IMG/VR virus record: IMGVR_UViG_3300045747_000145
Coordinates: 1 to 46,735 of that record
Reading direction: 5' to 3' (one strand)
DNA: 46,735 bases
DNA from: a virus
Each line of letters starts with the position of its first letter. The stretch's first letter is position 1. The notes under the pieces are model-generated. The model was not told the DNA's origin. It saw only the letters and a program-made list of their open reading frames with translations, and made no database searches. Positions 4,022 to 33,719 of this stretch are shown here, in pieces. The translations under genes and the position numbers were made by a program.

Positions 4022-4224
4022 ACGCGGCGCGGGCTGTTTTCGGGCTGATTCTGGGTATTATCTCCATGAACGCAACGCCAGAACAGCCGCCTTATGTTTT
4101 CATACTCGGGGAACCCTGTTCGTTGGCTTCAGACTTTGAAGACGGGGTTTGCATCATTCCCGAGGTTCTACGCAAGCCGCGCATCATCAAAAAGAAAAGG
4201 CACGTCAAGCATGTTCGCAAATGA
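4018..4224 (+). CDS. hypothetical small protein with hydrophobic N-terminus
   Basis: Encodes 68 residues from the ATGA-overlap start at 4018. The first about 16 residues (ARAVFGLILGIIS) look like a short signal or anchor; the C-terminus is strongly basic (KKKRHVKHVRK). Two cysteines (residues about 33 and 44) could form a disulphide if exported. No family recognised. Confidence 0.55.
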   Translation: MNAARAVFGLILGIISMNATPEQPPYVFILGEPCSLASDFEDGVCIIPEVLRKPRIIKKKRHVKHVRK

Positions 4225-4288
4225 CCCGATTCTGACGTTCGCCGCCTTCGTCTTCATCGTTTTTGTGCTGGCGTTGTTTCCAGACTAG
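4211..4288 (+). CDS. candidate 25-residue single-pass membrane peptide
   Basis: ATG at 4211 gives 25 residues, nearly all one hydrophobic helix (residues 9-23) with Asp at both ends. It overlaps the previous gene in another frame. No strong ribosome site (GGCACGTCAAGC precedes). Its stop TAG overlaps the stop of the minus-strand gene (4285-4287), so it is the last rightward frame before the strand switch. The membrane-like composition supports it, but its size keeps confidence low. Confidence 0.4.
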   Translation: MFANDPILTFAAFVFIVFVLALFPD

Positions 4289-4833
4289 AACCGATAGCCC
4301 AGCCCGCCGCCAACAAAGTAATCCCCGTCACTGTCAAGGTTGGCGTTTATTCCGGCGTGAACGGACTTCATTTGCAACAGGTCGGCGCGGAACGATAATC
4401 GCTCAACCTTCACGCCGCCCCGCTTCATGCCGTAGTCAATCCGCACTTCCCGCCTGAATTCAGCCGCCAGCCACGGCAACGGTTCGCGCCGAACGGTTGT
4501 TTCGACCTTGCCGGTCAAGTCATCAATGACGGTCACAACGGTTGTTGGATGGTCATCGGGTTTCACAACTTCCGCGTCAAGCACATGCTTATGCGGGTCG
4601 GCTTGAACGTCAGCAGGAAGGCCAAGTTCCTTTTTTGCCGGTTGCGTGTAAACGGCGACCTTTGGCGGCTTGATGTCTTCCTTGGGGGTATCTGCAACCC
4701 GAGGGGATTCAATCGCGCTGGTGACTGCACCAACGGGAGGCGGGGGCATTCTGAAATGGAACCACGCCGCGATTATCGCCACGGAGAGCGCGAACGATGC
4801 CGCGATGACCGCCCAACCTGTTTTATTGTCCAT
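4285..4833 (-). CDS. membrane-anchored spanin-like lysis protein
   Basis: Encodes 182 residues from ATG 4833 (AGAAGGT upstream), overlapping the holin-like gene by 11 bases. One N-terminal transmembrane helix (about residues 8-25), a proline-rich linker (IKPPKVAVYT), then a domain with VVTVIDDLTGKVETTVRREPLPWLA and a C-terminus of alternating strands ending in YRF. Similar small anchored periplasmic proteins occur next to holins in proteobacterial phages and are often proposed as inner-membrane spanins. No outer-membrane lipoprotein partner was found. Role as spanin is inferred from position and topology. Confidence 0.5.
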   Translation of the reverse strand: MDNKTGWAVIAASFALSVAIIAAWFHFRMPPPPVGAVTSAIESPRVADTPKEDIKPPKVAVYTQPAKKELGLPADVQADPHKHVLDAEVVKPDDHPTTVVTVIDDLTGKVETTVRREPLPWLAAEFRREVRIDYGMKRGGVKVERLSFRADLLQMKSVHAGINANLDSDGDYFVGGGLGYRF

Positions 4834-21939: not shown

Positions 21940-23205
21940 TTAACCTCTCTTCGGGATTACAGCGTTGGGGAAATCCTTCTTGAAGTCGCCAGAAGCGGAC
22001 AAGCCGGAATCGTTTGCCACGGGCGCGGCCTTCTTGCCCTTAGACAAGTCGAACAACGCTTTGAAGGCGGACGGATGAACGTCTTTCGTGTTCACGCCCA
22101 AATGGTCAAGCGCAAGCTTGTACACGCCAGCGGCGGAATCTTGCGCAACCACGGAACCGATGACCGGCTGAACGTCCAGTTCGGCGGCGTGAATGGCTTG
22201 CATACGCTTTACCGCACTGGCTTCAGCGGCGGCAATTGCAGCATCCATCGCGGCTTTGTCGTCTTTCTTGTCCTTGTCGGACTTCTCGAAAGCCTTGGCC
22301 TTGTCGTCTTCCTCATCGGAAGCGGCCTTTTCTTTCTTCGCCTTCATGCGGGCTTCATATTCTGCATCGGACTCACCTTCGCGTTGTTCGTCCTCATCGT
22401 CCGCGACCTTCGCTTTGGCTTTTTCCTTGTCTTCCTCTTCCTTGATGACGGTTTCCGCATCGCTTGCCAGAATCCGCGCCAAGTCCTTTTTTGAAATGCC
22501 CGCGTCCATTGCGACTTTCAGCGCGGCGGCGTGAGCAAGAATCAGTTTCTCTTTTCTCGTCATGGTAAATGTTCCTTGTAGGTTTAAGGGTTTTGAATCT
22601 GCAACAACAACGTCCGCGCCAGCGCGACCGACTTCGACAAGTGCAACATGATTGCCGATGATATTTGTCATGCGACCGTCATACGCCACGCCTTCAAAGG
22701 TTCCGGCTTCCATTACTGGGGTATAACGATACGAACAGGACAATTCGCATTGGTCGCGGGTTTCGATGCCGGCAATGGCGACCGACTCCCAGACAACCAA
22801 GGAATTTTTTAGATAAGGGAATTCAAACACGCAATCCGTTCCGGTCGAACCAACAACCAAGTCGGGTTGATGGTCTTCGGGTGATACCGGAACATGCTTC
22901 GACAGCAAGGGAATGTTATTGAACGAATCCGCCGCGCGCTTCAGTTCTTCGGGGTCGCGGTAAAGCTGATAAATCTTCTCGCCATCCAGCCCCAGCGTTT
23001 GCCAATTCGGAATTTCATGCCCGAAATACGGGTTGACAGTTGCCTTGCTGATATTGGAAGAGTCAACATGCAAACGCCCGTCGACATCCTTGCGGCGTGC
23101 CGAACGGTCGAAGGCAAGCAGATTGGCGGGCATTTCATCAAACGCCAACGCCAAGGGGGTTGCCCTTGGCTTGTACGCTGATTCAATGTGCCGTTGCTTC
23201 GTCAT
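21940..23205 (-). CDS. DUF2213 prohead protease fused to scaffold
   Basis: Encodes 421 residues from ATG 23205; an in-frame TTG at 23256 is less likely. Residues 1-215 carry the DUF2213 protease-like domain (DGRLHVDSSNISKATVNPYFGHEIP, NNIPLLSKHVPVS, LSCSYRYTPVMEAGTFEGVAYDGRMTNIIGNHVALVEVGRAG; the NHVALV segment holds the likely catalytic His). Residues about 215-421 are a highly charged coiled coil (KEEEDKEKAKAKVADDEDEQ) typical of scaffold, with a conserved tail end. An internal ATG with its own ribosome site at 22563 may give scaffold alone. Confidence 0.85.
   Translation of the reverse strand: MTKQRHIESAYKPRATPLALAFDEMPANLLAFDRSARRKDVDGRLHVDSSNISKATVNPYFGHEIPNWQTLGLDGEKIYQLYRDPEELKRAADSFNNIPLLSKHVPVSPEDHQPDLVVGSTGTDCVFEFPYLKNSLVVWESVAIAGIETRDQCELSCSYRYTPVMEAGTFEGVAYDGRMTNIIGNHVALVEVGRAGADVVVADSKPLNLQGTFTMTRKEKLILAHAAALKVAMDAGISKKDLARILASDAETVIKEEEDKEKAKAKVADDEDEQREGESDAEYEARMKAKKEKAASDEEDDKAKAFEKSDKDKKDDKAAMDAAIAAAEASAVKRMQAIHAAELDVQPVIGSVVAQDSAAGVYKLALDHLGVNTKDVHPSAFKALFDLSKGKKAAPVANDSGLSASGDFKKDFPNAVIPKRG
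22561..22578 (-). promoter_or_regulatory. internal ribosome site and start for a nested scaffold protein
   Basis: On the minus strand CAAGGAAC lies before an in-frame ATG (22563-22561) with nine bases between AAGGA and ATG. Translation from here would give a 207-residue protein (21940-22563) made only of the scaffold part, in the manner of lambda Nu3 inside C. The site is visible; its use is inferred. Confidence 0.5.
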
Positions 23206-23310
23206 TATTTCCGTTTCGCGCCTCGCGGCGTATTTGTCCGCCTCGCGGCGTTGCAAATTAACTTCGCGGCGACAGTATCACGCCGCTTTCTTTTAGGTCA
23301 AGGGGTTGGC

Positions 23311-23673
23311 CTAGTAAACCCGTGAAATTGGCAAGTTGGTGACATTCAACTGAACCGTTGCTTCCCGAGTATTACCCGCCGATGTCAGGAACAACGCGCG
23401 GACAATGTACGTGCCGACCGTCTTTCCGGCTGGGATAAGTCCGCCGCTGATTTGCACGATAATGACCTTGCCGATTGCGCCCGTAGTTCCGTCAGGGAAT
23501 GCAATGGTCGAAGCGTTGGCGACCGGCGTTCCAAACGTCAGGCCGGTAGTGTCAGCCGTCACCCCCGAAATCGACACGATGGTTTCGCCGACATTTAGGA
23601 TGTCAGTACAGTCGATGTCGTACCAAACGGATTCGCTGGTTCGCTTTTCAAGGTAAGGCGTTGCAATTTTCAT
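23311..23673 (-). CDS. Ig-like virion protein (fibre-tail adaptor type)
   Basis: Encodes 120 residues from the ATGA-overlap start 23673 with AAAGGA upstream. The order WYDIDCTDILNVGETIVSISGVTADTTGLTFGTPVANASTIAF...GLIPAGKTVGTYIVRALFLTSAGNTREATVQLNV is a typical seven-strand Ig-like phage protein sometimes labelled fibre-tail adaptor. It is coupled to the repeat protein upstream, suggesting a joint structure on the virion. Exact place is unknown. Confidence 0.6.
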   Translation of the reverse strand: MKIATPYLEKRTSESVWYDIDCTDILNVGETIVSISGVTADTTGLTFGTPVANASTIAFPDGTTGAIGKVIIVQISGGLIPAGKTVGTYIVRALFLTSAGNTREATVQLNVTNLPISRVY

Positions 23674-24662
23674 GGATTTTCCTTTGCGTGCCATATTGTG
23701 CCGCGTGCGGGAGGTCTTGCATAGCCCGCGCGGGCGGCAACGCGCCAAGCGTCACCCCGTCCGGCAACATGCCAGAACGGTCGCGTTGCTTCATTTGGTG
23801 CTTGCGAAAGCAGGGAACAATAATCATAAGCCGCCGCAAGTTCTGTGACGCTTGCGTTTATCACTCCCCAAGTGTTTGCGAAGTCGGTCGCCGCACCTAG
23901 TTCAGCAATGAAGGCGTTGGACAAGTGAATGCAAGACGCTGAATCAATCGCGATTGCCAATTCCTGAATCGACGCCGTTGCCATCTTTTGCGCTTGCGCA
24001 AAATCTGTTCCGGTAGTCGTTTCGCTTGCGCTTGCAACCAAAACCGAGTTTGCGGAAACGCTATCGGTTCCGGTTGCCGTTTCCGTGATTGACGCGGTTT
24101 GAATACCTGACCCAGCCGCCGAGGCGGTATCGGTTGCCGATGTCAGTTCGGACACGGACGCACCCATGATTGCAACAACGCTTTCCGCCGATGTCGCTGT
24201 TGCCGATTCCGTAATACCGGCGGCGCGCAAGGAAGTGTTTGAAGCGGTATCAGACGCGCTTGCCGTTTCCGTGATACCAACAGCAAGGACGCCCGACGAA
24301 GACGCGCTATCGGTCGCCGCGGTTGATTCTGTGATGCTTGCCGATGTTATCTTTGCCGCGCTTGTCGAATCTACTCCGGTTGCGCTTTCGGTGATGCTTG
24401 CGGTCAGCGGCGCGATGCCGGTTGACCCGTTCGCCGTTTCCGTTGCTGTTGTGGTTTCTGTTGCGTTTGCGGACAATGTTGCGATTGCGCTTTGCGTGTC
24501 AATCGCTGAAGCCGGTTCGGATATTGATGCCGCCCGCACAACCACCGCATCAAGCGCGTCAATCGCTGAAGCCGTTTCGGTGATGCTTGCAGTCAGTCCG
24601 CCGCCCGATGGTGCGGAATATCCGCCGTATGGGTTTAATCCAAACGGACTTTGCCCAAACAT
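23670..24662 (-). CDS. virion fibre-like protein of 13 ITExA-type repeats
   Basis: Encodes 330 residues. After a Gly-rich start (GQSPFGLNPYGGYSAPSGGG) about 13 imperfect repeats of 19-22 residues follow to about residue 275, core pattern A-S-I-T-E-[ST]-A-[ST]-A-x-D-[ST]-x-S-A, almost free of Lys and rich in Ala, Ser, Thr. The C-terminal 55 residues (PFWHVAGRGDAWRVAARAGYARP) are different, aromatic and basic. The regular period suggests an elongated beta-solenoid or fibre. It is coupled to an Ig-like protein and sits inside the head module. Confidence 0.7.
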   Translation of the reverse strand: MFGQSPFGLNPYGGYSAPSGGGLTASITETASAIDALDAVVVRAASISEPASAIDTQSAIATLSANATETTTATETANGSTGIAPLTASITESATGVDSTSAAKITSASITESTAATDSASSSGVLAVGITETASASDTASNTSLRAAGITESATATSAESVVAIMGASVSELTSATDTASAAGSGIQTASITETATGTDSVSANSVLVASASETTTGTDFAQAQKMATASIQELAIAIDSASCIHLSNAFIAELGAATDFANTWGVINASVTELAAAYDYCSLLSQAPNEATRPFWHVAGRGDAWRVAARAGYARPPARGTIWHAKENP

Positions 24663-27111: not shown

Positions 27112-27900
27112 TTACATTTTGAAGCCCTTGACAATCGGTTGTGAAGTGCATCGGCAATTGATTTCTTCGCCGGTCTGGGTAAATTTGCCGTCCAGAAACA
27201 GCCCTTTGGCGATTTCGTACCGCTTCCCGTCCGCATTCAGGTGCGAAGCCCTTGGTTCCTTGCCCGCGTGCGAATGCTTCCAAATGGCGTGCGTCACCCC
27301 GATTTCGCGTTGCCGCGTTCGGTTCAGGGTAGAAGTAGCTTTATTATTTTGATCTCGGGCTATCAAGGCCGCGCGTTTCTTTGTCAGGCCATAGCGATGT
27401 TCAATCAGTTGCGCAAGCGTCCCAAGGTCGCGCCCGTTCTGGACGGATTGCATGACCAAGGTTTGAACGTGTCCCAAGTGCTGTTGCGCAATGGTGCGAA
27501 TCAGCCCGACATTTTCATTGATAACCGCCGCGTATGATGTCCGCATTGGCGCGGTCATCTTGAAGTTCACAGAAATGCCAATGTCATGCAGGATGGTTGC
27601 AAGCGTGCCGTCCGAGTATGACCGCGTGCGTTGAGCGAACCACTTGCCCAATTCTTCCGCGCCCGTGTCAAAGTTCATTTCCCATTGCTTCGACAGGGAA
27701 TCAAGGGTCGATTGAAGTTCGGTCGCTGGGTTGGCGTCCGTTGCGAATTGCTTGGCTTGCCGACGATACGAAGCCCTGACCCAGTACATAACGGATTCGT
27801 GCATTGCCAGAACCAATGCTTCAAGCTTGCGTTGGTATATAGCCCCGATGCCCGCGTTCGGGCGGACTGGGCGCAAAGCTTTTTCGCCAGCTTCCAGCAT
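27112..27900 (-). CDS. MuF-like (SPP1 gp7 family) head morphogenesis protein
   Basis: Encodes 262 residues; TAATG overlap with the gene before. Helical N-terminal half, then LARDQNNKATSTLNRTRQREIGVTHAIWKHSHAGKEPRASHLNADGKRYEIAKGLFLDG and the INCRCTSQPIV end, the standard MuF/gp7 signature (W..S.....R..H..ADG...xxG......CRC). It is a minor head protein near the portal that can be ejected with DNA. No C-terminal toxin extension is present here; that kind of extension is on the portal instead. Confidence 0.88.
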   Translation of the reverse strand: MLEAGEKALRPVRPNAGIGAIYQRKLEALVLAMHESVMYWVRASYRRQAKQFATDANPATELQSTLDSLSKQWEMNFDTGAEELGKWFAQRTRSYSDGTLATILHDIGISVNFKMTAPMRTSYAAVINENVGLIRTIAQQHLGHVQTLVMQSVQNGRDLGTLAQLIEHRYGLTKKRAALIARDQNNKATSTLNRTRQREIGVTHAIWKHSHAGKEPRASHLNADGKRYEIAKGLFLDGKFTQTGEEINCRCTSQPIVKGFKM

Positions 27901-28076
27901 TATGCCGCCATGCCGCCTTCGTCCAATTCCGCTTCAGCCGCCGCCTTCGCCGCCGCCGCCTTCGCCTTGTAGTCAGGGGTATTGGTGTACGCCTTGGCCT
28001 TGGCGATTTGCGCCGCCTCTTCGGCATTTTCCTTTGCTGCTTCCGATTCCGCCAAATCCCAATTGATGTTTGCCAC
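27900..28076 (-). CDS. small alanine/lysine-rich helical protein, GTG start
   Basis: Encodes 58 residues from GTG 28076 with AAAGGG seven to eight bases upstream; the stop overlaps the MuF ATG (TAATG). Composition is Ala, Lys, Glu with heptad-like order (AESEAAKENAEEAAQIAKAKA), so a short coiled coil. Probably co-translated with MuF. Function unknown. Confidence 0.65.
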   Translation of the reverse strand: MANINWDLAESEAAKENAEEAAQIAKAKAYTNTPDYKAKAAAAKAAAEAELDEGGMAA

Positions 28077-28154: not shown

Positions 28155-28490
28155 TTACGCTACCTTGCCAGCCGCCCAAAGCTTGTTGTATTGGTCGTAT
28201 GACATCGGAGTGAAGCCAATTGCCGCCAGTCTGGTCGCCACGCCTTCCGCAACCGGCTTCAGGCCGTCCAGAATGTCGCTGATTATCTTCGGTGCGCTTT
28301 CCTTGTGAAATCCCGCGCGCTGGGTGATTGCGAACCCGCCAATCACGTAATCCCACGAACTGTAGTTGTTGTAAACATCGACGCCACGGAACGAAAAAAC
28401 AGGCTTTCCGGTGTACTCGAAAAACTCCCGCATGTGTAGCGACTCTTTGGTTCGCCACGGGTTGATGACGCGCACGGTTGTTGTGTTCAT
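28155..28490 (-). CDS. hypothetical accessory protein
   Basis: Encodes 111 residues from ATG 28490 (GGAAGGT upstream). Soluble alpha-beta with VRVINPWRTKESLHMREFFEYTGKPVFSFRGVDVYNNYSSWDYVIGGFAITQRAGF. No family named. It is the last of five small genes driven by the promoter at 29523-29550 and is followed by a hairpin-forming inverted repeat GCCCGCC...GGCGGGC (28102-28129). Confidence 0.65.
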   Translation of the reverse strand: MNTTTVRVINPWRTKESLHMREFFEYTGKPVFSFRGVDVYNNYSSWDYVIGGFAITQRAGFHKESAPKIISDILDGLKPVAEGVATRLAAIGFTPMSYDQYNKLWAAGKVA

Positions 28491-28506
28491 TTTGCACCTT
28501 CCTTTC

Positions 28507-28728
28507 TTAGTCGTAACGATTAGGGTCAAGTCCGCACATTATTTCAATGTCGCCGCCGCGCGGGATGATTTTGTTGATTTGGATTACGGTCATTTCAACA
28601 TCAAGGTCAACGCCGTCCAACTTGGTCATTGCGGCAACCTTGGCGGCAAGGTCAGGACAGCGTGCGGCATAGTGCGCAACATGGCTTGCCTGAATTTCCA
28701 AAGCCTTGCGCGGGGTCATCATAATCAT
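28507..28728 (-). CDS. hypothetical small protein
   Basis: Encodes 73 residues; GCAGGG precedes the ATG. Helical N-terminal half (PRKALEIQASHVAHYAARCPDLAAKVAAMTKLDGVDLDVEM), polar C-terminus. Overlaps or abuts the neighbours in the small-gene cassette between portal and MuF. No family recognised. Confidence 0.65.
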   Translation of the reverse strand: MIMMTPRKALEIQASHVAHYAARCPDLAAKVAAMTKLDGVDLDVEMTVIQINKIIPRGGDIEIMCGLDPNRYD

Positions 28729-28729
28729 T

Positions 28730-28930
28730 TTATTTCCCTGCCTTTCTTGTCAATGGAATCAACTTCACCGAGTACGCGCAAAACTCCGACCATTCCGCAT
28801 CTGTCATGTTGTCGTTCGTGCCGGACAGATATGCAAAGCGGCTTCCGTTCGGTTCTGGGCGGGTCATCACAACGCGCCCAGTTGAAAGCTTGAACGGTGG
28901 GTTGCATTGAATCATTTTGATGGTCTGCAT
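28730..28930 (-). CDS. hypothetical small protein
   Basis: Encodes 66 residues from ATG 28930 (AAGGGGATTACC upstream). It reads MQTIKMIQCNPPFKLSTGRV then TRPEPNGSRFAYLSG and a basic end LTRKAGK. Compact alpha-beta type, no catalytic motif. Member of the portal-MuF small-gene cassette; function unknown. Confidence 0.65.
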   Translation of the reverse strand: MQTIKMIQCNPPFKLSTGRVVMTRPEPNGSRFAYLSGTNDNMTDAEWSEFCAYSVKLIPLTRKAGK

Positions 28931-28940
28931 GGTAATCCCC

Positions 28941-29300
28941 TTATACGCTGAATACATTTGCCGCGCCGCTGTTGTCGCAAAACACCACGCCGTTACGTCC
29001 GGCCTTCGGGCTTGCACTGGCGAGAATTTCGGCTTTGAACATCATCAGGTCTTCCGCGCTCAAAACATCAACCTTGGTTCCGCGCGCTTGCTGGAAGTTA
29101 TGCGCCCCCTTTGCCAACCAAACGGTTCCGTCATCAAGACGGATGAAGCCCGAACGGTTGTCGCTCTGAATGCGTGCCGCATTGTTTTGGCCTTCGTTCT
29201 GCATCGGGTAAACAATGAAGTCTTGCGCCTTCCGCATTCCCGCAAACTTCCCGTCAAAGCTTACGGTTCCCATCATGTTGATTTTAATATTCACAATCAT
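28941..29300 (-). CDS. hypothetical small protein
   Basis: Encodes 119 residues from ATG 29300 (GGGGGTGTGAA upstream). Beta-like N-terminus (MIVNIKINMMGTVSFDGKFAGMRKAQDFIVYPM) and a KAEILASASPKAGRNGVVF C-terminus. No family recognised. It follows a 58-residue gene by one base and belongs to the same cassette. Confidence 0.65.
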   Translation of the reverse strand: MIVNIKINMMGTVSFDGKFAGMRKAQDFIVYPMQNEGQNNAARIQSDNRSGFIRLDDGTVWLAKGAHNFQQARGTKVDVLSAEDLMMFKAEILASASPKAGRNGVVFCDNSGAANVFSV

Positions 29301-29301
29301 T

Positions 29302-29478
29302 TCACACCCCCATCTCTTCAATCGCCGTCACAACCTCTTCGGCGTAATAGTAGCCAGCGGTCGCTGGTGTCATTGCCTCAATTGCTGCATTGGCGCGAAG
29401 CAAGGCGGCTTCGTTGTTGTAACCGGCGTTCCAGAACATTCTCAACGCCATCAGTCTTGTTACCGCAATCCGTCCCAT
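29302..29478 (-). CDS. small helical protein, first gene of the cassette
   Basis: Encodes 58 residues starting MGRIAVTRLMALRMFWNAG at 29478 with GAAAGG upstream. Helical, with EAALLRANAAIEAM and a C-terminal VVTAIEEMGV. The stop is one base before the next ATG. It is the first gene after promoter P2 (29523-29550), 45 bases downstream of the -10 box. Function unknown. Confidence 0.7.
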   Translation of the reverse strand: MGRIAVTRLMALRMFWNAGYNNEAALLRANAAIEAMTPATAGYYYAEEVVTAIEEMGV

Positions 29479-29613: not shown

Positions 29614-32118
29614 TCAGTGCTGATTCTTTGCCGTCAGAAGCGCGAACTTCTTTGCATCGACCAGCGGCTTGCCGTCCTTGCCCAGCTTGCCGGAATCAAG
29701 CAATTCCTTGGCAATCGCTGTCAGCTTTTCGGTTTCGGCAGCGGCGTCATACTTCGGTACATCATCCAGCGAACCAACGGCGGCTTCGTCAGGAAGCCCA
29801 AGGTTGTTTGTCACAACCACCTTGACGCGCGGGTTGTTGCGATATTCGTCGGAAATCTGCTTGATGGTCTTCGATGCGCCCGCGTGCGCCCCGACAAGCA
29901 CGCTGATTGATACAGAGCGTTCGCGCTTGATGTTCTGGGCAAACGCCTGTTCGATGTTGGCGTTGGTGTACGCAATCACAACATCGCCCTTGGTGACGTT
30001 CAGGGCTTCGTCAATCTTCTTGCTTGCGCTCCCCAGACTACCAAGCACGGAATCGTAAATAAGGCCGTCAGGACGCGCGCCCGTGACCTTCTGGGCGATT
30101 GGCATAGTGGTTGACTTACCCGAACCGCTTCCGCCCGCCGTGAACAGCGTTGGGCTTGCATCGCCCGCCTTGGCCTTCTCTTCCAGCGCGTGCGTGAAAA
30201 TAATCTTCGCCAGCTTGGAAGATGGTTCATGCACGGCGGCGGCAAGGTCGGGATTATTGGCGAAGTCGCCGTTCAGCTTTTTCACGAGGTCAGGGTCGAT
30301 GACGTTCTTGTTGTCATCGAAATACCGTTGAACAAGTTCATCCTTGTGGCGTTCAATGTAGTTGTGAAACGCGCCTTCGATGATATGTTGCGACTTGTCC
30401 AGCCCGCCCGAACGGACGTTGCCCTTCAAGTCCACATATCCATAGGTTCGCCGGTCTTCGCGGGTCTTTTGCGCCTTGGCTTCGCTTGGCGTCTTTACAC
30501 TTCCGCCGCCACCTGAACCGAATTGCCCATTGGTCGCGCGGTCGTGGTCGGACTCGCGCCAAGTCATATCGGCGGCAAGGTAATGCGTGTCAAGGAATGC
30601 GCGCGTGATTGCATCGTCAGCCTTCCCGCCGCCGCTTGGTATGTCTTCCGCGTCATCATCTTCGCCGCCCTGTTCCGGCACGGCGCTTGCGTCAAGGCTG
30701 TTGTAACCCGAGTCCTTATCGGCAACCAGCCGTTCCCGAACCTCTTCCGGCGCAATAACGCCCGACTGAATCAGCACAGCATCGGTGTCCGCCTTGGTCT
30801 TCTGGACGGTCGCCAGTTCGGCAACGTTCTGTTCTTCCAGCGGTTCAAATTCAAACACAATGTCGGGGTCGATTTCGCCGAATTCGTTCAGTTGCAGGAC
30901 ATCCAACACGACTTTCAAGTTCGGTTCAAAAATCGACTTTTGTTGGCCTAGCACGTATTCGTTCCACACCTGAAGTTCACCTTCAGATGATGCGTTAAGC
31001 CCCGAAGGTGTTACGCCCAATAACACTATCAGGGGGGTATTGGACACGGAAGACATTTGTTCTTGCGATTGTTGTTGCAAGCTGTCCAGCGTGCCAAGCG
31101 GGGTTGCCATTTGAAAGAACTCTTCCGAATCCTTGTCAATGACCATCAAGCCGCGATTGTCACGCATTTGGTTGAATAGCTTGGCGCGTTCCGCAAATCC
31201 GGCATCGTCACCGCCCTGCAATGCCGCCCCCATATTTGTCTTCAGGCCGGACACGCTGAACGAATGCACCAAGTCCGAAACGCTGTCGCGCGTGCGAATC
31301 CAGTTCTGAACATACGGTTGCGCCATTTGCGACATCGACAAGCCGCCGAAGTTGTAAGCGGCCTTCAGCAAGTCCGGCATCGGTCGGCTGACGAACATCA
31401 ACATGCGGGAAGCGTGAACCGTCTTGCCCATAACGTACCACTTGGAAGGCTTGTAATAATCCGGCGCAAGCGGGTCGGTCGCGTTGTATGCGCTCGGGTA
31501 TGTCCAAACAGGTTCGACCAGCCGGAAGCCCTTCAGCGAATCTTTCTTGATTTTTGCGCTGCGCATCAACAGCGGCGACTGAAGTTCGGCTTCATCATCT
31601 CGCGCAAGTCCACCCTTGGGTGATTCAACGTCTATGAACAACTGCCCGCGCCCAAAGAATCCATCATGTTCGGCGGCTTGCTTGAACAGGTCTTGAATGC
31701 CGAAGCGGGTCATTGCATCGACCAGCTTGGCAATCTTGTCGGTCTTGTCGCCGTCACCCTTGGCGGAAAGCTTGATGAACCGGCGCGTCATTGCCTTGGC
31801 GATTTCGGTTGAAATCTTCCGGTACTCGGGCATTTGGGAAAGCATGGACAGGGCAGGGTAGCCAATCCAATAGTTTGAAACGTATGCGTCATTCACGTAC
31901 TGGTAAGGGGTCGCGTCCATCGCAAGCGCACTGTCGCGCACGCCATCGGGGATGACGCCCTTGGGCGGTTCGTATCGCTTGAATTCAACAACAGGTTCCG
32001 GCTTCAGGGTTCGCGCCAGCGTTGCGCTTGTGATTCGCATGGGCTTCGCATCTTCGACGGGCTTCGCGTCTTGAACACCAAGGAAGGCGCGCAATTTGTT
32101 CCTGAACCATGTTTTCAT
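29614..32118 (-). CDS. DUF1073 portal protein fused to a zeta-toxin-like P-loop kinase domain
   Basis: Encodes 834 residues from ATG 32118 (AAGGG upstream); the frame also has a TTG at 32124. Residues about 1-480 are a DUF1073 portal (MPEYRKISTEIAKAMTRRFIK, NTPLIVLLGVTPSGLNASSEGELQVWNEYVLGQQ). After SDHDRATNGQFGSGGGG (about 523-539), a linker like those preceding cargo domains in phage head proteins, comes a second domain (about 575-834): Walker A GGSGSGKS (K668), an Asp 21 residues later (D689), R732/R734, and a GAHAGASKTIKQISDEYRNNPRVKVVVTNN end, all in the order seen in zeta/PezT kinases. The portal role is firm; kinase activity is inferred. Confidence 0.85.
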   Translation of the reverse strand: MKTWFRNKLRAFLGVQDAKPVEDAKPMRITSATLARTLKPEPVVEFKRYEPPKGVIPDGVRDSALAMDATPYQYVNDAYVSNYWIGYPALSMLSQMPEYRKISTEIAKAMTRRFIKLSAKGDGDKTDKIAKLVDAMTRFGIQDLFKQAAEHDGFFGRGQLFIDVESPKGGLARDDEAELQSPLLMRSAKIKKDSLKGFRLVEPVWTYPSAYNATDPLAPDYYKPSKWYVMGKTVHASRMLMFVSRPMPDLLKAAYNFGGLSMSQMAQPYVQNWIRTRDSVSDLVHSFSVSGLKTNMGAALQGGDDAGFAERAKLFNQMRDNRGLMVIDKDSEEFFQMATPLGTLDSLQQQSQEQMSSVSNTPLIVLLGVTPSGLNASSEGELQVWNEYVLGQQKSIFEPNLKVVLDVLQLNEFGEIDPDIVFEFEPLEEQNVAELATVQKTKADTDAVLIQSGVIAPEEVRERLVADKDSGYNSLDASAVPEQGGEDDDAEDIPSGGGKADDAITRAFLDTHYLAADMTWRESDHDRATNGQFGSGGGGSVKTPSEAKAQKTREDRRTYGYVDLKGNVRSGGLDKSQHIIEGAFHNYIERHKDELVQRYFDDNKNVIDPDLVKKLNGDFANNPDLAAAVHEPSSKLAKIIFTHALEEKAKAGDASPTLFTAGGSGSGKSTTMPIAQKVTGARPDGLIYDSVLGSLGSASKKIDEALNVTKGDVVIAYTNANIEQAFAQNIKRERSVSISVLVGAHAGASKTIKQISDEYRNNPRVKVVVTNNLGLPDEAAVGSLDDVPKYDAAAETEKLTAIAKELLDSGKLGKDGKPLVDAKKFALLTAKNQH

Positions 32119-32120
32119 TG

Positions 32121-33719
32121 TCAAACCCTTCGCAATAAGTCGCCCGAAATCCGCATAGGGGCGTTCGTGCCAGCATAGCAGATAACCACGGCGTCAGCCA
32201 AGTTCGGGCTTGCTGCATCATCGCCCAGCTTGTCCACAACGATTTTGCCCGCCCCGTTCGGCGTGTATGTCGGCTGTGACAATTCCGCGACCAACTGGGC
32301 GCGATTGTTCAATTCCGAGGGAATCACTATGATTTCAGCGAAATCGACTTTCATTCCCAGTTCGACCGCCCTGAATGTATTCTGGAACCGCAACCGCAAT
32401 TGCCACCATGCTTGCGCCTTCCGGTTGGCAAAGAAGTCTTTGTTCTTTCGCCCCTTCACCAGATTGTCAGAGTCGGGTTTCTGGACTTCCCCTGACCCGC
32501 GATATGCGTTCGCCGTAATGCGGTCGGGCGGTTCGCGCCCCTCATTGATTACCCGCGCATCACCCCTGCAACCCGAACCGATGCCGTCCGAGTCGTAATC
32601 GAACGCCTTCAGCCCGTAGTCATCGCACAGCCCAAACGCCCTTTGCACGGTGTAATAAATATCGCTGTCCTTGCCCGACCACTGTTCCAGCACTTCCAGC
32701 CGCACACCCAGCCGACCGGCAAAAGCGTTCTTGTCCTTGCCTTCGTCGGCAACGTCCAGCCCTGCCGTTTTGCCGCCGCTTGCGGAAATGCCAAGCTTCT
32801 TGTCGGCATCAATCGCGGCCTGAACCCATGCGGACGGAATCAACACGCCTTCGACCGAAGCGTTTTCGTCCATATCCACTTCTTGCGCCAGCGTTATCGA
32901 GTCAAGTTCAAATTTCTGTTTTTCATACCAAGCATCATCTTTGCGCGGGTCATCGCGCCAGTTGAACAAGAATTGCTTGATATTGCCGCGCCGCCTCTTC
33001 TGGGCGAATGGGTTGACCGTGCCGTTGACGCTGGACAGGTCAATTCGGCAATCGGTCGTTGCGGAAAGGGCGGCATCAATCAACTTTGGCCTTTCAAGGT
33101 GCGCCGCTTCGTCAACGAAATAGATTGACTGACGACCGCCGCGCCCTATCTTGTCGCCGCCCTCGCCGGTAATGATTGACCCCGATTCGGGAAACTCAAT
33201 CTTCATGTGGGTGCTGTGCTTGTCCCGCACCCAGCCGCCACGGAATTCGACCGGAAGCAGGGACATAAACATGCGGGCTTTTTCAAGCAAGCTGTCGGGG
33301 TCGCCAAGCGTGTCAACAAGTTCCGCCTTACGTGAACCCCAGCCAATCGACAGTTCGGGCGTGAACAGGCACAGCGTACAGCTTAAGGCCATCATCAACC
33401 ACGAAACGCCCATGTCGCGGCTTTTGGGTATCAAGCCACTTTCACCAGCCCGCCAACGGTCAATAACCCACGGAACCAATTCTTCCTGACGCGGGAACAA
33501 CAGGAACGGCATGGTCGCCGGTAAGTTTCGACGGGCAAGGCGCGGGTCATAGGTCATGCCGTGGTCGATTATGAATTGTGCCGGATTGTGCTTGTAGAAA
33601 AGCTTTAGGTCTGGAAGGCATTCAGGGTGCGCCCGAATCCATTTCAGCTTTTCGATGCGCCAAGCGAAAACCTTTGTATAGTCGGGGTTTTTAAAATCAA
33701 ACTCAAACGGCAACGGCAC
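32121..33719 (-). CDS. terL: terminase large subunit, GTG start
   Basis: Encodes 532 residues. The start is GTG at 33719, one base into the upstream stop (TAGTG). ATPase: Walker-A-like SRDMGVSW (residues 100-107), Walker B IYFVDEAAH with acidic pair about 203-204, and SSVNGTVNPF as coupling motif. Nuclease: GLDVADEGKDKNA (D322), FDYDSDGIGSG (D374-D378) and a late PNLADAVVI Asp. It cuts concatemers and pumps DNA into the head. Adjacent to TerS and portal as usual. Confidence 0.93.
   Translation of the reverse strand: MPLPFEFDFKNPDYTKVFAWRIEKLKWIRAHPECLPDLKLFYKHNPAQFIIDHGMTYDPRLARRNLPATMPFLLFPRQEELVPWVIDRWRAGESGLIPKSRDMGVSWLMMALSCTLCLFTPELSIGWGSRKAELVDTLGDPDSLLEKARMFMSLLPVEFRGGWVRDKHSTHMKIEFPESGSIITGEGGDKIGRGGRQSIYFVDEAAHLERPKLIDAALSATTDCRIDLSSVNGTVNPFAQKRRRGNIKQFLFNWRDDPRKDDAWYEKQKFELDSITLAQEVDMDENASVEGVLIPSAWVQAAIDADKKLGISASGGKTAGLDVADEGKDKNAFAGRLGVRLEVLEQWSGKDSDIYYTVQRAFGLCDDYGLKAFDYDSDGIGSGCRGDARVINEGREPPDRITANAYRGSGEVQKPDSDNLVKGRKNKDFFANRKAQAWWQLRLRFQNTFRAVELGMKVDFAEIIVIPSELNNRAQLVAELSQPTYTPNGAGKIVVDKLGDDAASPNLADAVVICYAGTNAPMRISGDLLRRV

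Follow-up and report, generated by a model that had tools for sequence, protein, structure and literature searches.

A predicted zeta-type kinase of the shuffled ng_zeta1 class at the C-terminus of a phage portal protein

The portal protein encoded by the window (the whole 46.7-kb viral contig analysed here, from a contractile-tailed phage) carries at its C-terminus, in residues ~555–836, what is by sequence an intact zeta-type kinase. This domain is almost certainly a member of the shuffled class represented by ng_zeta1 of Neisseria gonorrhoeae; related kinases recur on several other carriers, and a short conserved tag precedes it. We give about an even chance to the explanation as a whole, in which an active portal-borne kinase is carried as head cargo, injected into the cell, and directed at a UDP-sugar from which the cell wall is made.

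The portal gene and its kinase domain

The minus-strand genes of the window include those for TerS, TerL, portal, MuF, head protease, minor head protein, MCP, neck and sheath, and the kinase is, as in other head-packaged effector fusions, part of a head protein encoded within the head gene cluster (Table 1). Residues are numbered here from the TTG start; numbering from the ATG is two lower (K670 = K668, D691 = D689, D612 = D610), and positions 29614–30564 correspond to residues 521–836. An earlier sequence-only reading of this DNA described the ORF, its coordinates and its motifs correctly (GGSGSGKS with K670, D691 21 residues farther on, and the DHDRATNGQFG stretch), and its Arg732/734 are present as R734 and R736. 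Its identification of the protein as a portal is also borne out by the PF06381 match, whose score along the portal core exceeds the curated cut-off (272.5 bits against 33.8). The portal domain is homologous to the solved gp19 portals of phages E217 and Pa193 (PDB 9b41, E=1e-39; 8fvh, E=4e-39). It is followed by a linker at residues ~480–550 that is predicted to be disordered (pLDDT <50), and structure prediction makes residues 555–836 a well folded domain. The GC and GC3 values of the portal and kinase parts of the gene are alike, which gives no sign of a recent acquisition of the cargo. A portal 57% identical to that of the window (locus L004) has no cargo domain, and an Obolenskvirus portal likewise lacks one. 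From the portal-kinase gene to MuF, the window contains several small ORFs that match no family (28155–29321, minus strand); L004 has none there. Elsewhere in the window, a 330-aa protein built of imperfect ITESATATDSAS-like repeats (23670–24662, minus strand) has no PHROG match.

Table 1. Coordinates of the portal-kinase gene, its parts and its neighbours in the window
Feature	Position	Strand	Remark
Portal-kinase fusion gene	29614..32124	(-)	836 aa from TTG; 834 aa from ATG at 32118, two codons in
PF06381 portal domain, residues 90-449	30778..31857	(-)	PF06381 E=5e-81
Cargo tag TWRESDHDRATNGQFGSGGGGSVKT, in predicted disordered linker	30490..30564	(-)	DHDRATNGQFG begins at residue 526
Predicted ng_zeta1-type (shuffled zeta) kinase domain, residues 555-836	29617..30462	(-)	Profile, AF2, Foldseek
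D612 (D610 from ATG), predicted catalytic base	30289..30291	(-)	Equivalent of ng_zeta1 Asp56; invariant, 52/52
K615, equivalent of substrate-binding Lys59 of ng_zeta1	30280..30282	(-)	K or R in 52/52
HEPSS motif, residues 632-636	30217..30231	(-)	E633 and S636 invariant, 52/52
Walker A GGSGSGKS, residues 664-671	30112..30135	(-)	K670 equivalent to ng_zeta1 Lys115, 52/52
D691 (earlier D689)	30052..30054	(-)	Conserved 51/52; not the predicted base, belongs to another block
Lid arginines R734, R736	29917..29925	(-)	52/52; R736 equivalent to ng_zeta1 Arg181
Large terminase subunit	32121..33719	(-)	PHROG 2; overlaps portal gene start
58-aa ORF directly before MuF, at companion-ORF position	27900..28076	(-)	Ala-rich; homology only suggestive
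MuF head protein, cargo-free in the window	27112..27900	(-)	PF04233 E=8e-13
Head maturation protease, candidate cargo releaser	21940..23256	(-)	PHROG 2229 E=1e-127

The isolated domain of the window scores 25.0 bits against PF06414 (cut-off 22.3), with only the P-loop region contributing; inside the full ORF the score is 19.1 bits, under that cut-off. A protein search with the window kinase alone found no match in viral or genome contigs. Relatives were fetched with a DNA pattern for FTAGGxGxGK, which gave 120 viral loci. One large family, in which VHEPSS precedes the P-loop and YDS/YDTN follows it, accounts for most of these. All 52 family members aligned for a kinase profile match PF06414 at E<=0.1 (best 1.7e-18), and the profile matches ng_zeta1 (6EPH/6EPI/6EPG) over the whole domain (254 positions) with E=4e-26. 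The AF2 model of the domain has a pLDDT of 94.9, and Foldseek against the PDB returns ng_zeta1 first (E=1e-11, TM 0.76), followed by AvrRxo1 and then by canonical zeta and PezT, the last two superposing poorly. The zeta-type reading thus withstands the search for another P-loop family, and on fold and profile we reject identification of the domain as a terminase or AAA protein or as a polynucleotide kinase. Polynucleotide kinases do occur among the weaker fold matches, but with an E value of 4e-3 against 1e-11 for ng_zeta1, and the zeta-type block and lid are present; action on DNA or RNA ends is hardly credible.

In ng_zeta1 two sequence blocks are swapped relative to other zeta toxins, which puts the catalytic Asp56 before the P-loop Lys115 (PMC5923241). 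The window domain agrees with this subclass in block order, in its equivalents of Asp56, Lys59, Lys115 and Arg181 (residue correspondences are those of the profile alignment), and in fold. Canonical zeta and PezT kinases have their catalytic Asp downstream of Walker A; the aligned D612 lies upstream of K670. Thus, the earlier proposal of a zeta-type P-loop kinase with a conserved active site holds, but its assignment to the pSM19035 zeta/PezT class gives way to the shuffled ng_zeta1 class. Canonical zeta-toxin domains are themselves C-terminal cargo of tagged portals (see below) at loci L173, L198, L240, L192 and L256 (PF06414 down to 5e-25), where the block LDPDxIKxxLPEF..NAAQVHEESS is downstream of the P-loop; its equivalent in the window, 'IDPDLVKKLNGDF..DLAAAVHEPSS', is upstream (shuffle support for this comparison varies, 0–5/300 among the five). 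Since Asp56 maps to D612 and the canonical block sits after the P-loop, D691, previously proposed as the catalytic base, is not predicted to be so, and the spacing of 21 residues that K668–D689 share with pSM19035 zeta is a coincidence. Both residues are nevertheless conserved among homologues, and the lack of conservation that the proposal named as a ground for its refutation is not seen.

In addition to the active-site residues in Table 1, K640, H747 and N774 are invariant (52/52). Substrate binding in ng_zeta1 involves Lys59, Asn75, Arg175 and Arg181, with Asn75 contacting UDP-MurNAc (PMC5923241). At the position of Asn75 the window has Ala and most relatives have Ser; the substrate of the window kinase may therefore differ from that of ng_zeta1. 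The window sequence lies on a long branch of the kinase tree and its close portal relative in L004 does without the domain, both of which might be expected if a dead domain were retained as a structural extension of the portal; this is, however, very improbable, as neither the window nor any of 51 diverse relatives has lost a catalytic residue and the reading frame is unbroken.

Carriers of related kinases and the cargo tag

Close relatives of the kinase are found on PF06381 (DUF1073-type) portals of two subtypes and on MuF; others lie downstream of NUDIX, between NUDIX and a DUF2213 head protease, or in a small separate ORF of the head cluster. The carrier changes at least eight times on a quick tree of 43 kinases and five outgroup rows. 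Locus L068, with the order TerS, TerL, a cargo-free portal of 470 aa, a tagged 222-aa protein and a tagged kinase, is a split form of the fusion in L055. The 222-aa protein (L068:2541-3209, minus strand) has no recognised domain; with it, this phage encodes two tagged cargo proteins as separate genes. In Manatee Spring phage (MW202577) the protein that carries a related kinase is not a portal; no relative of the kinase domain of this phage was detectable in plasmid sequences. The sole exact-pattern match in bacterial genomes is an Acidobacteriaceae MAG, which is not usable for host assignment. Related kinases also occur within giant proteins of 1,900–3,000 aa, in the style of polyvalent proteins (L016, L030, L054, L059 and L080).

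The tag ahead of the kinase has the consensus [FW]xExxH[PD]R[AD]xxG[QKR]F and is followed by a Gly-rich stretch; the window copy has HDR where most relatives have HPR. Among loci chosen by P-loop rather than by tag, all 53 assessable non-MuF kinases of the close family carry it, against none of nine MuF fusions and one of 105 other P-loop loci; these counts include many near-copy loci (there are 43 distinct kinases). A separate scan for HPRAxNGQFG found at least 98 distinct tags, and the F/W at -5 and E at -3, which lie outside the search pattern, are 100% conserved among the matches listed. At least 129 ORFs are tagged; among the matches listed, 74 are recognisable portals and 39 have the tag near the N-terminus, and most of these 39 have same-strand head or packaging genes in the locus, often adjacent (several of those without such neighbours come from short loci). 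Other cargo of tagged portals includes ADP-ribosyltransferase, PBECR1 RNase, LPD3 and canonical zeta, and GNAT-like and topoisomerase I-like domains also occur in tagged ORFs. One tagged portal (L217:9953-12385, plus strand) carries a eukaryotic-type topoisomerase I catalytic domain (PF01028, E=4e-13). The portals of L163 (cut at its start), L130, L152 and L138 have two consecutive tags with one domain behind each; in L163 no Pfam family matches the first of these domains (FIVYRV...RNAGNA).

That the tag is a piece of the portal fold is ruled out, as it also occurs close to the N-terminus in small ORFs, and elsewhere with a NUDIX domain on one side and a protease domain on the other. No copy was found in the MCP, head protease or other head proteins of the window, so that nothing shows recognition of the tag by the protease, and the idea that the tag is a site also cut by the protease in the MCP is not supported.

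A small ORF that accompanies the kinase

Kinase-bearing relatives have a companion ORF of 50–70 aa (FExAKxxWLKxLNGKS...). Its start is at -3 to +1 bases relative to the end of MuF-kinase genes and 9–54 bases past several portal-kinase or separate kinase genes; elsewhere the ORF lies 0.3–3.6 kb behind the kinase genes, often right before MuF. Where the portal-to-MuF interval is covered, it is present in 24 of 29 kinase loci and in none of 42 kinase-free loci. The raw table (24/40 vs 0/42, Fisher p=2e-10) scored re-fetched contigs outside the small-ORF set as negatives, and with near-copies in both groups its p value is not to be relied on. Conversely, all loci fetched by the companion ORF that have enough upstream sequence hold a kinase except L215 (match 4217–4378), the only one with the ORF and other portal cargo in place of the kinase, which is perhaps a relic of a cargo swap.

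Comparison with ng_epsilon1, Pfam and PHROG found no homologue of the companion ORF, and its membership in any of these families was set aside. The window and its nearest relatives are among the five kinase loci that lack it. The 58-aa ORF in the corresponding position of the window scores 12.7 bits against it, a score reached by 1/200 shuffles, and is a positional counterpart only. The earlier statement that no epsilon-type antitoxin is visible is correct as far as known epsilon families go, yet the relatives do have this conserved small ORF along with their kinase. We consider this ORF, weakly recognisable in the window, a candidate inhibitor of the kinase. A broader reading, which we advance tentatively and hold somewhat less probable than its opposite, takes [FW]xExxHPR[AD]xxG[QKR]FxxG as a general head-cargo tag, a site that is recognised or cleaved in the course of packaging and release and that begins exchangeable enzymes on portals, on NUDIX/protease proteins and on separate small head-cluster proteins; in the same reading the kinase-linked ORF would be a new kind of antitoxin that holds the kinase off until it is packaged.

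Place in the virion, possible action and relation to known systems

The cryo-EM models of E217 and Pa193 gp19 extend to residue 528 of the 765; the C-terminal barrel faces the head interior, and Pa193 gp19 has no density past residue 528 (PMC10329688, PMC11042391). The unmodelled stretch of E217 gp19 (529–765) carries an InPase domain. Because these homologous barrels face inward and the C-terminal part is unseen, cargo at the portal C-terminus should be inside the head and either flexible or cut off; by this analogy the window kinase is very probably inside the virion. The head-borne cargo proposed by the sequence-only reading is thus likely, the kinase being fused to a portal in the head gene cluster and its relatives being on several head proteins.

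We envisage that the tag and disordered linker attach one kinase to each portal subunit, at the end that faces the capsid interior, with as many as twelve in a head. The kinase is probably released by cleavage, for which the head protease, acting near the tag, is the simplest candidate. The freed kinase would enter the cell together with the DNA and phosphorylate a UDP-sugar needed for the cell wall, and wall synthesis would be held back during entry or early infection. Cleavage, ejection, substrate and benefit are inferences, and release followed by injection could go either way. Injection needs cleavage, since an uncut portal could not be injected, and the fact that a covalent portal domain cannot enter a new cell uncut favours a kinase that works late in the producing cell, on free portals, where a wall block would aid lysis, the head would be a mere end point, and the companion ORF would restrain the kinase before assembly. 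E. coli is lysed by expression of ng_zeta1 (PMC5923241), and the companion ORF is directly behind the kinase ORF in several arrangements, as such late action might lead one to expect. On the other hand, the close-family kinase switches carriers, the identified ones being head proteins, and a lysis helper would need none; moreover, its tag is common to RNase, ADP-ribosyltransferase and other cargo. Late action therefore seems to us unlikely.

We lean slightly toward a UDP-sugar substrate; UDP-MurNAc, UDP-GlcNAc and UDP-glucose are all phosphorylated by ng_zeta1 (PMC5923241). An injected kinase might instead act as a counter-defence on some other nucleotide (NAD, as AvrRxo1 does, a defence second messenger, or ATP/NTP pools). 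AvrRxo1 is its next structural neighbour after ng_zeta1, the UDP-MurNAc-contacting Asn is not kept, and the ART, NUDIX and InPase cargoes found in the same slot act on nucleotides; but AvrRxo1 is absent at E<=1 from the profile search that finds ng_zeta1, and the ng_zeta1 Lys59 and lid arginines are retained. Another nucleotide is thus the less probable target, although it deserves some weight.

If the proposed scheme, with injection and a UDP-sugar target, is true, portals are exchangeable payload racks that place up to a dozen enzymes at the DNA exit point, and the shuffled zeta class joins the phage weaponry, with a candidate inhibitor. A strict tag common to unrelated cargo would let virion-borne effectors be found by sequence alone, and would allow one to address directly the packing and release of cargo and the means by which it is kept from harming the producing cell.

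The nearest known relative, ng_zeta1 (PMC5923241), is like the window kinase in whole-domain homology, shuffled order and the equivalents of Lys115, Asp56, Lys59 and the lid Arg. The window kinase differs in being fused to a portal, in having no C-terminal OB domain, in not keeping Asn75 and in having no detectable ng_epsilon1-like antitoxin. The passages of Iyer et al. 2017 that bear on such fusions (PMC5512222) report zeta-like kinases on MuF and in polyvalent proteins and other enzymes on portals, and propose injection and wall weakening by the zeta-like kinases. Their system thus resembles that of the window in having a zeta-like kinase on a phage head protein; in their zeta statement the carriers are MuF and conjugative polyvalent proteins, with no mention of portals, and in those passages no cargo tag was found under linker, signal or cleavage and no companion ORF was met. 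PBECR, 2H, ART and Nudix fusions on portals are likewise described in parts of the literature (PMC5512222, PMC9503650). A search of openly accessible journal articles (thus without subscription papers or preprints) found no paper on portal zeta kinases, and the articles consulted do not mention the shuffled class in phages, the tag or the companion ORF. MuF-zeta and portal-enzyme fusions were published in 2017; what appears to be new is the shuffled class on portals, together with the tag and the companion ORF.

Canonical zeta and PezT kinases, including the five on tagged portals, share the fold superfamily, and those five the cargo slot as well, but have their D and VHExSS after the P-loop where the window kinase has them before it. 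The T4 Alt and internal proteins are packaged in the head with a targeting sequence that is cut by the prohead protease. They are a working analogy for an enzyme packed in the head and injected; the tag differs from the T4 targeting sequence, and no sequence relation is shown. E217 gp19 (InPase) and the portal of Pseudomonas phage Orisa03 (ART) have the portal family and insertion point of the window protein with a different cargo enzyme; E217 is without the tag, and Orisa03 has the same tag as the window.
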